NCBI GenBank assembly: GCA_943325485.2
Contig: CALPPP020000011.1
Coordinates: forward strand, 1-15,810
From: Rickettsia typhi
Lineage (GTDB): Bacteria > Pseudomonadota > Gammaproteobacteria > Burkholderiales > Burkholderiaceae_C
Direction: 5' to 3'
Length of the DNA: 15,810 bases
The notes beneath the pieces are model-generated. The model saw nothing but the letters and a program-made list of their open reading frames with translations. It searched no databases and was not told where the DNA came from. Made by a program: the position numbers and the translations under genes. Within the stretch, counting starts at the first letter, position 1. Every line of letters begins with the position of its first letter. This document shows positions 906 through 5,913 of this stretch, piece after piece.

Positions 906-2573
906 ATGACAACTGACACAAACACCCCAAGCGCACCCCAAAAACTCATAGACATTGATGCCCTTGACGCGAAAGCGCTGTTAGGTCTTGAAGAGTCTGG
1001 CCCGCCCATCTCCAAAGACCAACCCTTTCGCAAATGGTTGTACGACTGGACGTTGAACCCCAACATCCCAGGTAACTTCCAGCCGGTGTTGGACAAGTGG
1101 ATTGGCGTTTTGATTGTGGTCAATCTGTTTGCATTGGTGCTAGAGCACGTGCCAGCCTTGTTTGACCCCTACAAGCAACTCTTTCATTACTTTGATATTT
1201 TTTCAGTCACTGTTTTCGTTTTGGAATATGCGCTGCGCTTTTACTTAGCGCCTGAGGATGAAGAATTCCAAAAGAAAAACACACCACGTGTAGCCTATGT
1301 TTTTAGCCCTTTTGCCATCATCGACTTTTTGGCTGTCGCTCCATTCTTTTTGCAAGCCTTTATCCCTATCGATTTAAGGGCGCTGCGGTTCTTGCGACTC
1401 TTGCGAATCCTGAAGCTGTTTCGCATTGTCATTCCAGCCATCAAAGAGTTTGCCGAACTCAACCGCGGCCGCACTTTCCGTCAAAAAATCCATGCCATGG
1501 TGTTTGAAAGCGCTTATGGCGGCAAATTACAAACCATCTTCGACACCTTCATCGGCATTTGGGTCATTATTTCCGTGCTGGCCGTGGTTTTGGAGTCGGT
1601 CCAAAGTGTCAGCTACCTCATCAACTTAGAGTTCGTCATTCTGGATACGGTGGCGGTGGGCATTTTCACCATCGAGTACTTGATGCGCATCTACGCTTGC
1701 GTGGAAGAACCCAAGTTCAAGCACGGGTTTTTAGGCAGGTTCAATCAAGCCCGCAGCACATCCACCCTGATTGATTTGCTGGCGATCTTGCCTTTCTTCT
1801 TGGAAGTCTTGCTGGGGTCTGTGCTGGACTTGCGTTTCTTGCGAACCTTCCGTTTGGCGCGTTTGCTCAAACTCACCCGCTACAACGACTCCACCAAGAT
1901 TTTGACCACCGTCATCGCGCGCGAGTGGCCCGTCATCAGCGCCTCCGCCTTCATCATGATTTTGATGGTGATCATGACCGCCAGCTTGGGCTATGTGTTC
2001 GAACACGAAGCGCAGCCCGAGAAGTTTGACAACATCCCCAACTCGGTTTACTGGGCCATCATCACACTGGCTTCAGTGGGTTACGGCGATATCTCACCCA
2101 TCACCCCCATAGGGCGCTTCATGACGGTGGTGATGTCCTTGCTGGGTATCGGTATCTTTGCTATCCCAGCGGCTTTGCTGGCATCTGCCTTTGGCGATCA
2201 ATTGCACAAAGAGCGTGAATTGATGAAAAGCAATTTGCGCAACATGATGAAAGATGGTCACTTAGACGATTCTGAAATCGAAATTTTGCGTGCAGAAGCA
2301 AAACGACTGCACATCACCATCGAAGAGCTCAATGCCTTGCTAGAGCATGTTCACAATGAACGCATCAGCTCGCAACATAAGTCCGTACTTCCCTTGCATA
2401 TCATTGCTGAGCGACCGGAGCATGCCATCGAACATTTCAAAATGTTGGTATCTCAAATCAATCAGCTGGCTTTGTTGACAGACGCCGCCAAATTTGAGCA
2501 AGAAGCCAAGGCTTCTGACAGCCTCACCGCCAAAGAATTGGCCGTGTGGCAGCAGTTGCGCAGCCGCAGTTGA
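906..2573 (+). CDS. Voltage-gated K+-channel-like protein with two voltage-sensor domains and one pore
   Basis: This 555-residue membrane protein has an unusual order. The first voltage sensor covers about residues 60-178: S2 carries E107, S3 carries D140, and S4 has six basic residues at every third position (R158, R161, R164, R167, K170, R173). The second covers about 210-330: S2 E257, S3 D290, S4 R310, R313, R316, R319, K322, R325. One pore module follows: S5 about 342-362, pore-helix W383, filter S-V-G-Y-G-D at 390-395, S6 about 402-430. The GYGD filter predicts K+ selectivity. The cytoplasmic tail has an acidic segment (DGHLDDSEIEIL, 450-461) that recurs in the next two channels, then about 80 further helical residues. 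Ordinary bacterial Kv channels have one sensor per pore; two-domain channels have two pores. The first sensor has no pore of its own. GAGG just before ATG 906 is a plausible ribosome site, and the gene is coupled to the 352 gene. Confidence 0.9.
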   Translation: MTTDTNTPSAPQKLIDIDALDAKALLGLEESGPPISKDQPFRKWLYDWTLNPNIPGNFQPVLDKWIGVLIVVNLFALVLEHVPALFDPYKQLFHYFDIFSVTVFVLEYALRFYLAPEDEEFQKKNTPRVAYVFSPFAIIDFLAVAPFFLQAFIPIDLRALRFLRLLRILKLFRIVIPAIKEFAELNRGRTFRQKIHAMVFESAYGGKLQTIFDTFIGIWVIISVLAVVLESVQSVSYLINLEFVILDTVAVGIFTIEYLMRIYACVEEPKFKHGFLGRFNQARSTSTLIDLLAILPFFLEVLLGSVLDLRFLRTFRLARLLKLTRYNDSTKILTTVIAREWPVISASAFIMILMVIMTASLGYVFEHEAQPEKFDNIPNSVYWAIITLASVGYGDISPITPIGRFMTVVMSLLGIGIFAIPAALLASAFGDQLHKERELMKSNLRNMMKDGHLDDSEIEILRAEAKRLHITIEELNALLEHVHNERISSQHKSVLPLHIIAERPEHAIEHFKMLVSQINQLALLTDAAKFEQEAKASDSLTAKELAVWQQLRSRS

Positions 2574-2664: not shown

Positions 2665-3561
2665 ATGTTCGAGCAACAAAAAACCACTTTGATGGAGATC
2701 CTAGAAGGCTCTCCCAAGCAAGCGCTGTCGCGTTACGCTGAATGGATGATTTCTGCTGTGGTGTTGGTCAACTGTACCGCGGTGATTTTGGACTCGGTAC
2801 CCGAGATACATGCGCAGTACAAAGATTTTTTCCACGAGCTTGAGTTTTGGAGCGTGATGTTTTTCACCGCCGAGTACCTGATGCGGGTTTGGTCATTGGG
2901 TGCGAAATACGCTGACAGCGCATGGAAAGGTCGGCGCGAATACATGTTCAGCGCCTTTGGCTTGGTCGACTTCTTTGCCACCATGCCTTATTACTTGCAT
3001 GTGTTCTTCCCGTTGCTTGACTTGCGAATCTTGCGGGTTTTGCGTTTGCTGCGAATTTTGAAATTATCCAAATACAACTCCGCCCTGCAAGACTTGTTTT
3101 CTGCGGTGTACTCTGAGCGACGTGCGTTTGGCTCTGCCGCATTTTTGCTGACCATCGCTACCATCGTGTCTGCTTCGCTGATGCACTTTGCCGAAGGCCA
3201 TGCACAGCCAGAACACTTTGGAACCATTCCGCACTCCATCTATTGGGCCATCGTCACCATCACCTCTGGCTTTGGCAATGTGGACCCGGTCACCAAAGGG
3301 GGCGAAGCCATCGCCCTGCTCACCGGTTTCTTGGGTGTGTGTATGGCGGCCATCTTGACCGGTATCGTGGCATCGGCTTTTGCCAATCAACTTGCACGCA
3401 AAAAATCCGCCTACCAAGCGCAATTGCGGCAAGTGCTGGCCGATGATGTCGTCACCGACGATGAGAAGGACGCCCTCAAACGCTTGCAAATGCAATTTCG
3501 CTTGAGCGATAAAGAAGTGCAAACCATGATGGAACAGGCCCAAGCTGGGAAAAAACCATGA
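2665..3561 (+). CDS. Voltage-gated ion channel subunit with non-canonical selectivity filter (TSGFGN)
   Basis: This 298-residue, six-helix channel has a voltage sensor with S2 E70, S3 D102 and an S4 of evenly spaced R121, R124, R127, R130, K133, K136. S5 is about 155-175. The pore helix contains W194 (SIYWAIVTIT), and the filter is T-S-G-F-G-N at 200-205, followed by V-D-P. Compared with the Kv pattern W-A-V-V-T-M-T-T-V-G-Y-G-D, the stretch from Trp to the filter end is one residue shorter, Val is lost or replaced by Ser, Tyr by Phe, and the outer Asp by Asn. S6 is about 213-240. The tail contains DDVVTDDEKDAL, matching the acidic element of the other two channels. K+ selectivity therefore cannot be assumed. 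The stop overlaps the next start (ATGA), so the next channel is translated in coupling and may be a partner subunit. No strong ribosome site precedes ATG 2665. Confidence 0.88.
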   Translation: MFEQQKTTLMEILEGSPKQALSRYAEWMISAVVLVNCTAVILDSVPEIHAQYKDFFHELEFWSVMFFTAEYLMRVWSLGAKYADSAWKGRREYMFSAFGLVDFFATMPYYLHVFFPLLDLRILRVLRLLRILKLSKYNSALQDLFSAVYSERRAFGSAAFLLTIATIVSASLMHFAEGHAQPEHFGTIPHSIYWAIVTITSGFGNVDPVTKGGEAIALLTGFLGVCMAAILTGIVASAFANQLARKKSAYQAQLRQVLADDVVTDDEKDALKRLQMQFRLSDKEVQTMMEQAQAGKKP

Positions 3562-4493
3562 ACAGCACGCTGGAGTTGTCCGCCTTTCGCCGCGCCAAAC
3601 GCCGCATCTTCCACATTTTGGAAGGCGATGTGGCCGACCCTGCCAGCCGATTTTGCGAAATCTTTATTGCTTTACTGGTGGTTTTGAATGTCTTGGCCAT
3701 CATCTTGGAATCTGTCCCTGATATTCACGAAGCTTGGGGCAGCTACTTCCATGTTTTTGACCTCTTCAGTGTGGGGGTGTTCTCTGTCGAGTATGTATTG
3801 CGCGTATGGTCTTACAGCGAAAAATACACCGAGCCAGGCGACAGCCCTTGGAAGGGACGCAAAGAATACATCTTCAGCTTCTATGGCTTGGTGGATTTTT
3901 TCAGTACCGTGCCGTTTTACCTGCAACTGCTGATGCCTGGCACCGATTTGCGTGTGTTGCGAATGTTTCGTTTGCTGCGTATCTTCAAGCTCTCACGCTA
4001 CAACAGCGCCATGGACGATATGTTTGAAGCCATCAAATCAGAGAAGGATTCATTTTCCTCAGCACTGTTTTTGTTATTTATAAGTGGACTGCTGTTTTCC
4101 TCTTTGATTTACATCATTGAAGGTCATGACCAACCAGAGGTCTTCCCCTCCATTCCCGCTGCCATGCACTGGTTTATGTTGACCATCATTTCAGGCTGGG
4201 GCAATGCGGATCCAGTGACCTTTCCTGGCGTGGTGCTGGTCATCGTTACGCAGATTTTGGCCATTGCCTTGGCTGCTATCTTGACGGGTGTGGTGTCTAC
4301 CGCCTACACCACCCAAGTGGCACGGCGCGAAGCACTGTATGAAATGGAAATCCGCGAAGTATTGGCCGATGGTGTGGTCTCAGATGAAGAAGCCATCAAA
4401 CTCAAAAACATGCAAGCCAAGTACGGCATGTCAGACGAGCAAGTAGAAGCGATCGCAGCACAAGTTCGTGCTGAAAAGGATTTACCGCCGTAA
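3558..4493 (+). CDS. Voltage-gated ion channel subunit with non-canonical selectivity filter (ISGWGN)
   Basis: This 311-residue paralogue of the preceding channel overlaps it by 4 bp (ATGA at 3558-3561). The voltage sensor has S2 E78, S3 D113 and S4 R132, R135, R138, R141, K144, R147. The pore region reads AAMHWFMLTI then I-S-G-W-G-N at 211-216, followed by A-D-P. As in its neighbour, one residue is missing between Trp and the filter end relative to Kv channels. The aromatic is Trp instead of Tyr and the outer Asp is Asn. The Thr that starts the K+ filter is replaced by Ile. The C-terminal tail (DGVVSDEEAIKL, 271-282) is the same acidic two-helix element as in both upstream channels. Tandem coupling of two diverged copies makes a heteromeric channel plausible (inference). 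The gene is followed after 34 bases by the ZIP-like gene. Confidence 0.88.
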   Translation: MNSTLELSAFRRAKRRIFHILEGDVADPASRFCEIFIALLVVLNVLAIILESVPDIHEAWGSYFHVFDLFSVGVFSVEYVLRVWSYSEKYTEPGDSPWKGRKEYIFSFYGLVDFFSTVPFYLQLLMPGTDLRVLRMFRLLRIFKLSRYNSAMDDMFEAIKSEKDSFSSALFLLFISGLLFSSLIYIIEGHDQPEVFPSIPAAMHWFMLTIISGWGNADPVTFPGVVLVIVTQILAIALAAILTGVVSTAYTTQVARREALYEMEIREVLADGVVSDEEAIKLKNMQAKYGMSDEQVEAIAAQVRAEKDLPP

Positions 4494-4527
4494 TTCAACC
4501 GCGATTTATCCGCAACCGGAGACGATG

Positions 4528-5913
4528 ATGCAAGACATGGGAAGCACTTTGATCATTTGGGCAGCCATTTTGGGTGCGATTGCGGCGGGATCTATGGTGC
4601 TTGGCGCCATTGTCGGCATCACCACGCCGATGTCAAACTCCACCGTTGGCGCCATGTGCGGCTTTGGCGCTGGCGCTTTGATATCCGCTTTGGCGCTGGA
4701 ACTGGTGTCGCCCACGGTTGAAGCCTTGGCCCACGCCGACATCGCAGACCGAGCTGAGGAAATTCACCATTTCATCACTCTCTTGCTGGCCATGGTGGGG
4801 GGTGGCTTGATCTTCATACTGCTTGACCAGTTGCTCAGTGCGCATGGCGGCTATTTACGCAAAGGGGCTTACGTCATCGCCCAACATGCCCGCAACAAAT
4901 CCAAGCGCCAAGCCGACTTGATGCAATCCATTGGCAACTCCTCTTTCTTCAGCAGCATGTCAGCTGAGATGATGCAGGATTTGGTCAAGCAGCTTCACCC
5001 TAAATTCTTGGTGCAAGAGGAAACCTTGTTTGCGATAGGCGACCCTTCCACCGAGCTGTACATCGTGCGCTCTGGCACCCTCACCCTGACCCATGCAGAT
5101 GGCAGCAGCCACACAGTAGAGCGCGGTGATTTATTGGGTGAGGTGTCTTTCTTGTCGCACCAAGCCCACAGCACCACCGCTGTGGCAGAGCATGGCCCAG
5201 CCGAGTTATTGGTCTTGCATAAATCGCAGTACGACATCTTTGCGCGTACTCACCCAGAGTTTTCGGCTTCGGTTCGTGAACTCGCTGCACAACGTATTTT
5301 GGAAAACAAGCGCCATATCGACCAAGCAGCGGTTGCCAAACAAGCCTGGGCCAATTTGGCGATTGATGCCATCCGAACCGGTGGCAGCGAAGTCCCCACA
5401 GCCACTGACTTGAACAATATGAAAGAAGAGCACAACAACGCTGGCATGGCGATTTGGTTGGGCAATTTGCTGGACGTGATTCCTGAGAGCTTTGTCATCG
5501 GCACGGTCATGCTGTCTATCGTTGCAGCCAAAACCGCCACAGGCATCACCTTGGGTTTTTGGGATGTCATGCCCTTGACTTTGGTAGGTGCTTTGTTTTT
5601 ATCTAACTTTCCTGAAGCCTTGTCGGCTAGCGTGAACATGAAGCAACAAGGCTTCTCCACCAGCAAAATCCTCTTTCTTTGGACCGTACTGACCGTGATC
5701 TGCGCAGTGGGCGCTGCGTTTGGGGCTTATGTGGGTGAGTCCATTCCTCACTCAGCCATGATTGTGGTGGAAGGGATTGCCGCAGGTGCCATGCTGACCA
5801 TGATCGGCTCTGCCATGCTGCCCGAAGCCGCGCATTTATCCACGCCGAACATGGCGGGGTTTTCAACCTTGGTGGGTTTTGTGGCCGCGGTAGGATTCAA
5901 GCTTTTTGAATAA
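4528..5913 (+). CDS. ZIP-like metal transporter with an inserted cyclic-nucleotide-binding-like domain
   Basis: This 461-residue protein has three N-terminal hydrophobic helices (about 7-30, 38-60, 82-102), a long cytoplasmic loop, and about five C-terminal helices (307-460). The second half has two ZIP-type helices: GNLLDVIPESFVIG (312-325) and SNFPEALSASVNM (359-371), comparable to the N-x-P-E-G metal-site helices IV and V of GufA/ZIP transporters. The protein ends with a further GSAMLPEAAH helix. In the loop, about 140-245, lies a CRP-like beta-roll: FLVQEETLFAIGDPSTELYIV, G-T-L-T-L, then GDLLGEVSFLSHQAHSTTAV. The G-E of the phosphate cassette is present, but the conserved Arg that contacts the cyclic phosphate is His (H214), so ligand and binding are uncertain. 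ZIP proteins move divalent metals into the cytoplasm. Start chosen at ATG 4528 with GGAGA 6 bases upstream; ATG 4525 is the alternative. The GTG at 4468 would overlap the preceding gene and lacks a ribosome site. Confidence 0.82.
   Translation: MQDMGSTLIIWAAILGAIAAGSMVLGAIVGITTPMSNSTVGAMCGFGAGALISALALELVSPTVEALAHADIADRAEEIHHFITLLLAMVGGGLIFILLDQLLSAHGGYLRKGAYVIAQHARNKSKRQADLMQSIGNSSFFSSMSAEMMQDLVKQLHPKFLVQEETLFAIGDPSTELYIVRSGTLTLTHADGSSHTVERGDLLGEVSFLSHQAHSTTAVAEHGPAELLVLHKSQYDIFARTHPEFSASVRELAAQRILENKRHIDQAAVAKQAWANLAIDAIRTGGSEVPTATDLNNMKEEHNNAGMAIWLGNLLDVIPESFVIGTVMLSIVAAKTATGITLGFWDVMPLTLVGALFLSNFPEALSASVNMKQQGFSTSKILFLWTVLTVICAVGAAFGAYVGESIPHSAMIVVEGIAAGAMLTMIGSAMLPEAAHLSTPNMAGFSTLVGFVAAVGFKLFE

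Follow-up and report, generated by a model that had tools for sequence, protein, structure and literature searches.

Genes A and B, which overlap in the window (the whole 15,810-nucleotide stretch of DNA that was analysed), encode six-helix channel subunits whose selectivity filters are both one residue short. Judged from their sequences, they are Kv-type channels with a natural shortened filter. The reading tentatively favoured here, at a little under even chances, is that A and B act as partners within a single voltage-gated cation channel, derived from a canonical K+ channel, whose filter has three sites and which is weakly selective for K+. A stricter version is possible but doubtful: A and B would form an obligate heterotetrameric voltage-gated channel, its natural three-site filter would have arisen from a K+ channel by the loss of one codon, and it would be non-selective or have a new cation preference. 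The relevant features of the window are as follows.

906..2573, + strand: K2, the 555-aa channel upstream of A, with two tandem voltage-sensor modules (two Ion_trans stretches, two S4-like segments) and one pore with a canonical ASVGYGD filter
2665..3561, + strand: gene A, 298-aa six-helix channel subunit, filter TSGFGN (Ion_trans, 1.2e-28)
3019..3072, + strand: S4 of A, DLRILRVLRLLRILKLSK, read from the sequence
3262..3279, + strand: filter of A, T200-N205, T-S-G-F-G-N, one residue short, with a spacing common to all distinct A
3558..3561, + strand: ATGA stop/start overlap of A into B, read from the sequence
3558..4493, + strand: gene B, 311-aa six-helix channel subunit, filter ISGWGN (Ion_trans, 2.4e-25)
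3945..3998, + strand: S4 of B, DLRVLRMFRLLRIFKLSR, read from the sequence
4188..4205, + strand: filter of B, I211-N216, I-S-G-W-G-N, one residue short, with a spacing common to all distinct B
4504..5913, + strand: cNMP-binding domain within a ZIP-like membrane protein (Pfam; the Zip match is below the cut-off, and the ORF list opens this frame earlier, with a GTG at 4468)

The initial annotation had described two coupled channel paralogues joined by an ATGA overlap and endowed with intact voltage sensors, and this description is borne out. A and B share 47% identity, the Ion_trans profile spans S1-S6 in both proteins with scores that exceed the 25-bit cut-off, the overlap is found at 3558-3561 and both S4 segments carry an Arg or a Lys at each third residue. 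In the S4 of A, R121, R127, R130 and K133 are invariant in a 59-row alignment (A5). The sequence matches among solved structures are all potassium channels or their chimeras, mostly Kv/KCNQ (best 60 of 308 for A, best 60 of 213 for B), and the top fold matches of the AlphaFold2 model of A (mean pLDDT 77.8) are KCNQ2 and Kv4.2, at TM-scores of about 0.4-0.5; the mean pLDDT of the model of B is 84.7. Neither A nor B has a Pfam match to a cNMP_binding domain, and the cyclic-nucleotide-binding domain that follows S6 in CNG/HCN-type channels is thus not found in them.

Both genes are present in 53 of the 57 genomes of the window's genus that have either. Three of the four exceptions have a single gene at a contig edge (G303, G368 and G371); in the fourth, G301, A is split over two frames and B has an internal stop. 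In 54 pairs whose starts were chosen by script, the gap between A and B never exceeds 11 nt, and in 25 of them it is -4 nt; the two genes lie within 200 nt of each other in 73 of the 80 loci of the named set. They are not neighbours in six loci (L215 and L218-L222). Whole-genome searches of five MAGs without B beside A recovered B each time, about 2-7 kb off or on another contig, and all five carriers of family f18 have both genes; in the MAG of L215, whose completeness is not established, A was found and B was not. The check proposed with the initial annotation, i.e. whether the members of the pair always occur together, therefore has a positive answer apart from a few cases (three single genes at contig edges, a disrupted pair and a MAG in which A alone was found). 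This near-constant co-occurrence favours a joint function, of which a heteromer is the likeliest form, and A and B probably belong to a single channel as its two components. It must be counted against the favoured reading that adjacent paralogues can be co-inherited without assembling.

The K2 gene is located -4 to 160 nt ahead of A (50 loci), and the pore helix of B has a His or a Lys where relatives have Trp or Tyr, at what we take to be the position of Shaker W434. Both observations would suit A and B being non-conducting alone and serving as silent or modulatory subunits, or as voltage sensors, for the upstream double-sensor K+ channel or for another channel. However, three genomes that carry A and B (G304, G646 and G702, assemblies 85-88% complete) gave no K2 orthologue at E<=1e-30, the matches being A and B themselves and, in G304, another short channel. 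Furthermore, the loci L174 and L182 differ by 4% in A and 1% in B but by 33% in K2, which suggests that K2 has been exchanged independently in some lineages. The genomes without K2 and this exchange weaken an obligate partnership with K2, and a non-conducting role of the pair is considered quite unlikely. Over 61 loci, the distances of A and B correlate at r=0.87, and the correlation with K2 is 0.65 for A and 0.70 for B. The unit, as these comparisons indicate, is the A-B pair and not a trio with the upstream channel.

Channels of the K2 type, whose layout is unusual, are frequent in the genus, and homologues of similar length occur in other Burkholderiales (L140, L141, L219 and L222). Directly 5' of K2, a gene at 352-897 encodes a 181-aa single-helix protein without Pfam match, a candidate accessory subunit; counterparts sharing 25-28% identity are found upstream of the double-sensor channel at L140, L141, L298 and L301. 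Several Limnohabitans-type genomes also carry, on the opposite strand and near a second double-sensor-like channel, a distant channel with a TTTGYGD filter (L188:8738-9766).

Counted from the IP motif of the pore helix, the first filter Gly is reached after 12 residues in 93/93 distinct A and 93/93 distinct B, and the corresponding spacing in the upstream K+-type channel K2 is 13 in 49/49 readable sequences. ORFs entered this count if they were at least 200 aa long and more than 52% identical to a protein of the window; failure to match the search expression, or a sequence that was not distinct, removed 2 of the 95 ORFs of B and 41 of the 90 of the upstream channel. The three f18 carriers found later (G1412, G1413 and G1416) have the same short spacing, and the HMMER alignments to Kv structures, three shown per subunit, all have a gap of one residue at the filter. 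All 186 pores have GxG (the search expression demanded it, and two B ORFs did not match). Two further statements of the initial annotation, that the filters are one residue shorter than those of Kv channels and that they differ from the T-L-E-S-W-A-S type, are in agreement with these data.

The same holds for its view that such a shared change is unlikely to reflect decay. One genome (G301) does have a broken A-B pair, and nothing in favour of decay or of a sequencing artefact was found for the window itself. The identical short spacing recurs in 186 distinct pores from many assemblies, including the strains Limnohabitans sp. JirII-31 and Jir61, the records of which bear no MAG label. In addition, dN/dS is low, ranging from 0.025 to 0.068 for A and from 0.025 to 0.073 for B in nine genome pairs (own script, Nei-Gojobori), although the ratios are rough since several dS exceed 1 and reach up to 1.9 for A or B. 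The invariant spacing and the low dN/dS together rule out a decayed or artefactual filter, to which practically no credence is given. Both genes appear to be under strong purifying selection and to have been largely co-inherited since their duplication.

The outer filter position (+3 from the first filter Gly) is occupied by Asn in 92/93 A and 91/93 B, and an acid is found at +5, i.e. two residues beyond this Asn, in 93/93 A and 93/93 B. The replacement of the outer Asp by Asn that had been claimed for both proteins is therefore general, but its special nature does not stand, since the filter of hERG (Kv11.1) reads SVGFGN (PMC12259024). For the same reason, Asn and Phe were rejected as marks of a lost K+ selectivity, as hERG carries both. 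The middle residue of GxG is mainly Tyr in A (Y 83, F 5, N 2, W 2 and S 1 among 93 distinct A) and Trp in 93/93 B. Two residues before the first filter Gly, A has Thr (91 of 93) or Ser (2 of 93), the next residue varying between Ser, Ala and Thr, and B has Ile or Val in 93/93. Neither protein has the full-length T-x-G-Y/F-G of K+ channels in register with the pore helix, both being one residue short, while the letters of A alone still fit TxGYG and B has Ile/Val at the Thr position.

Where the residue was lost matters for the expected selectivity. If it was lost from the pore helix, A would keep a four-site TxGYG filter (TSGYG, with Ser for Val) and would be K+ selective, B (ISGWG) would only tune it, and the pair would be a heteromeric K+ channel of the usual kind, unusual only in its signature. 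The fit of the T-S-G-Y-G of A to TxGYG counts against the favoured reading, the Thr or Ser that A always has at this position, followed by a variable residue, is what the hydroxyl of the S4 ion site would demand, and the hERG filter makes Phe and Asn compatible with a K+ channel. On the other hand, B always has Ile or Val at the Thr position, the filter Tyr of A is replaced by Asn, Ser or Trp in 5/93 sequences, and both AlphaFold2 models, which are single chains of low local confidence, extend the pore helix up to the Ser directly before GxG (filter block means of pLDDT of 59 for residues 201-210 of A and 70 for residues 211-220 of B). The models thus point weakly to the filter, and not the pore helix, as the shortened part. 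A shortened filter is held to be likelier than a shortened pore helix, and an ordinary K+ channel with a shortened pore helix is regarded as an unlikely but serious alternative. With the register of the pore helix kept, the Ser would presumably stand where the lower Thr is otherwise found and no counterpart of the Val would remain, so that S-G-Y-G would provide about three sites.

In a tree of 95 rows, A and B each form a clade (100/93 and 100/100, respectively) and together form a third one (100/100), to which the nearest row is L119, a channel with a TTVGYGD filter (joined at 98/96). S6 and its surroundings are much alike in L119 and A, and the most visible change concerns the filter region. 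Since A and B make up one clade beside a TTVGYGD channel, a single deletion probably preceded the duplication, this order of events being the simplest history. The filter of the common ancestor would have lost one residue, passing from TTVGYGD to a TS-GYGN type, and in the same ancestor the outer Asp would have become Asn while an acid was fixed two residues further out. The gene would then have duplicated and the copies specialised. In the A copy, Thr/Ser would have been kept ahead of a small residue, and the aromatic filter residue would mostly have stayed Tyr/Phe; the B copy would have acquired Ile/Val before the small residue, Trp in the filter and His/Lys in the pore helix.

The carriers found belong to the Burkholderiales, mainly Limnohabitans and its kin. 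In the family sample, 17 of 299 genomes gave a match, and short filters were found in three only, all from the window's genus and including the window's own genome. A match to B at E<=1e-60 is present in 57 of the 84 genomes of this genus. The order sample (399 genomes) yielded two further carriers, both from family f18, in which five of 26 genomes, these two among them, carry the pair, with A and B adjacent in all five. Within the 55 best-scoring new loci of the class (369) and phylum (299) samples, to which the reading of filters outside Burkholderiales is limited, none has a short filter and all are of the full-length T-x-G-Y-G-D type. Ten plasmid records match at about 30-38% identity. In the named collection (best 80 of 341 places), the carriers are Limnohabitans, other Comamonadaceae MAGs and a few MAGs labelled Polynucleobacter or Oxalobacteraceae. 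The titles of MAGs are not fully reliable: the pair-carrying L197 is titled Bordetella parapertussis, a label that looks wrong.

The window also encodes the urea transporter UrtABCDE, the gamma and beta subunits of urease and ureD. Of the 59 genus loci, to which two genomes contribute two each, 50 are long enough to be read for ureD, and in 22 of these the gene lies downstream of B on its strand. In the named set, which overlaps the genus set, it is found 3' of B in 34 of the 61 readable loci; in G304, it is about 4.8 kb further downstream. In 19 of these 34 named loci, the ureD frame opens at most 60 bases from the end of B (the true start may be later), and A-B and ureD may form one transcript there. 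In 11 genus loci, window included, a gene for a ZIP-like/cNMP protein separates B from ureD. This link to ureD leaves room for an ammonium role, and A and B could form an ammonium channel working with the adjacent urea uptake and urease genes. However, ureD is absent from at least 2.5 kb downstream of B in 28/50 genus and 27/61 named loci (it may lie further off), and it had no match in wider stretches from f18 and from Polynucleobacter/Oxalobacteraceae MAGs. The urea setting mentioned by the initial annotation is thus real in part but not constant, and elsewhere the pair has another setting.

A different series of genes is found in f18, G300 and G304: DUF1538, two genes of P-II-like or related type, a gene for an uncharacterised 244-aa protein, A, B and CLC. 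The same four genes (DUF1538, two P-II-like genes and the 244-aa gene) stand ahead of A in a Polynucleobacter MAG; this order was recognised by clustering, and Pfam was applied to the genes of f18 and to the G300 CLC. One example, with a cation-homeostasis-like content, is L293:3620-10447, and the arrangement recurs in L295, L296 and partly L297. Its two P-II-like genes could be taken as a further hint at ammonium, but one of the P-II matches is below the Pfam cut-off, P-II-like proteins serve non-nitrogen systems too, and the filter has no feature that points to ammonium. An ammonium channel is accordingly rated improbable. The DUF1538 proteins UmpA and UmpB are described as a heterodimeric Na+(Li+,K+)/H+ antiporter (PMC5484666), and such a setting would suit a channel involved in the homeostasis of cations and membrane potential.

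Under the favoured reading of a weakly K+-selective cation channel, the working of the pair can be pictured as follows: A and B would assemble as a heterotetramer, probably 2:2; the loss of the Val equivalent would leave three cation sites instead of four; once S4 is moved by voltage, monovalent cations would pass, K+ being only weakly preferred over Na+; and the channel would contribute to membrane-potential and cation homeostasis. Should A and B indeed make up one channel, bacteria would have a voltage-gated channel encoded by two genes; no report of such a channel was found in a narrow literature search, most subscription journals being outside its reach. No channel paper on these filter strings was found in the open literature by title or abstract start, nor any channel paper on Limnohabitans by title.

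Among known channels, the closest is L119, a canonical bacterial Kv-type channel from the same order, which resembles A and B in its six helices, its S4, its S6 pattern (VGVC..A.LTGIVA) and its C-terminal region. It shares 45% identity with A but has a full-length filter with Asp. At E<=1e-40 its genome gives this one match, and its short locus shows no B. Since close relatives kept the residue that this natural and long-conserved K+-channel filter has lost, the change is testable in its own protein background. Na+ channels of the NaChBac type, like A and B, are voltage-gated six-helix subunits with a single repeat. Their filter is of the Glu-bearing TLESWAS type, without GxG, and no such filter is found in A and B; none of these channels appears in the best 60 PDB sequence matches of A (308) and B (213), nor among the 50 fold matches listed for A. 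NaK has no voltage sensor, and the number of contiguous sites needed for a preference of K+ over Na+ has been studied largely on engineered NaK variants.

The hERG channel has Ser, Phe and Asn at places equivalent to those of A but keeps a Val between Ser and Gly, where A and B have no residue; a cNMP-type domain was not found in A or B. Published reports on NaK and its derivative describe two sites in the non-selective NaK, a four-site mutant of which is K+ selective (PMC9822992), and three contiguous sites (S2-S4) in NaK2CNG, which is also non-selective (PMC12376597). Like the filter proposed for A and B, those of NaK and NaK2CNG derive from K+ channels and have fewer than four sites, and their lack of selectivity supports a weak selectivity of a three-site A/B filter. 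It is the outer filter that is altered in NaK and NaK2CNG (TVGDGN, TVGDTPP), whereas A and B keep GxG and have lost an inner residue. NaK2CNG is engineered, unlike A and B, which are natural; if the pair is truly a three-site heterotetramer, it would parallel in nature what site-number mutants such as NaK2CNG achieve by engineering.
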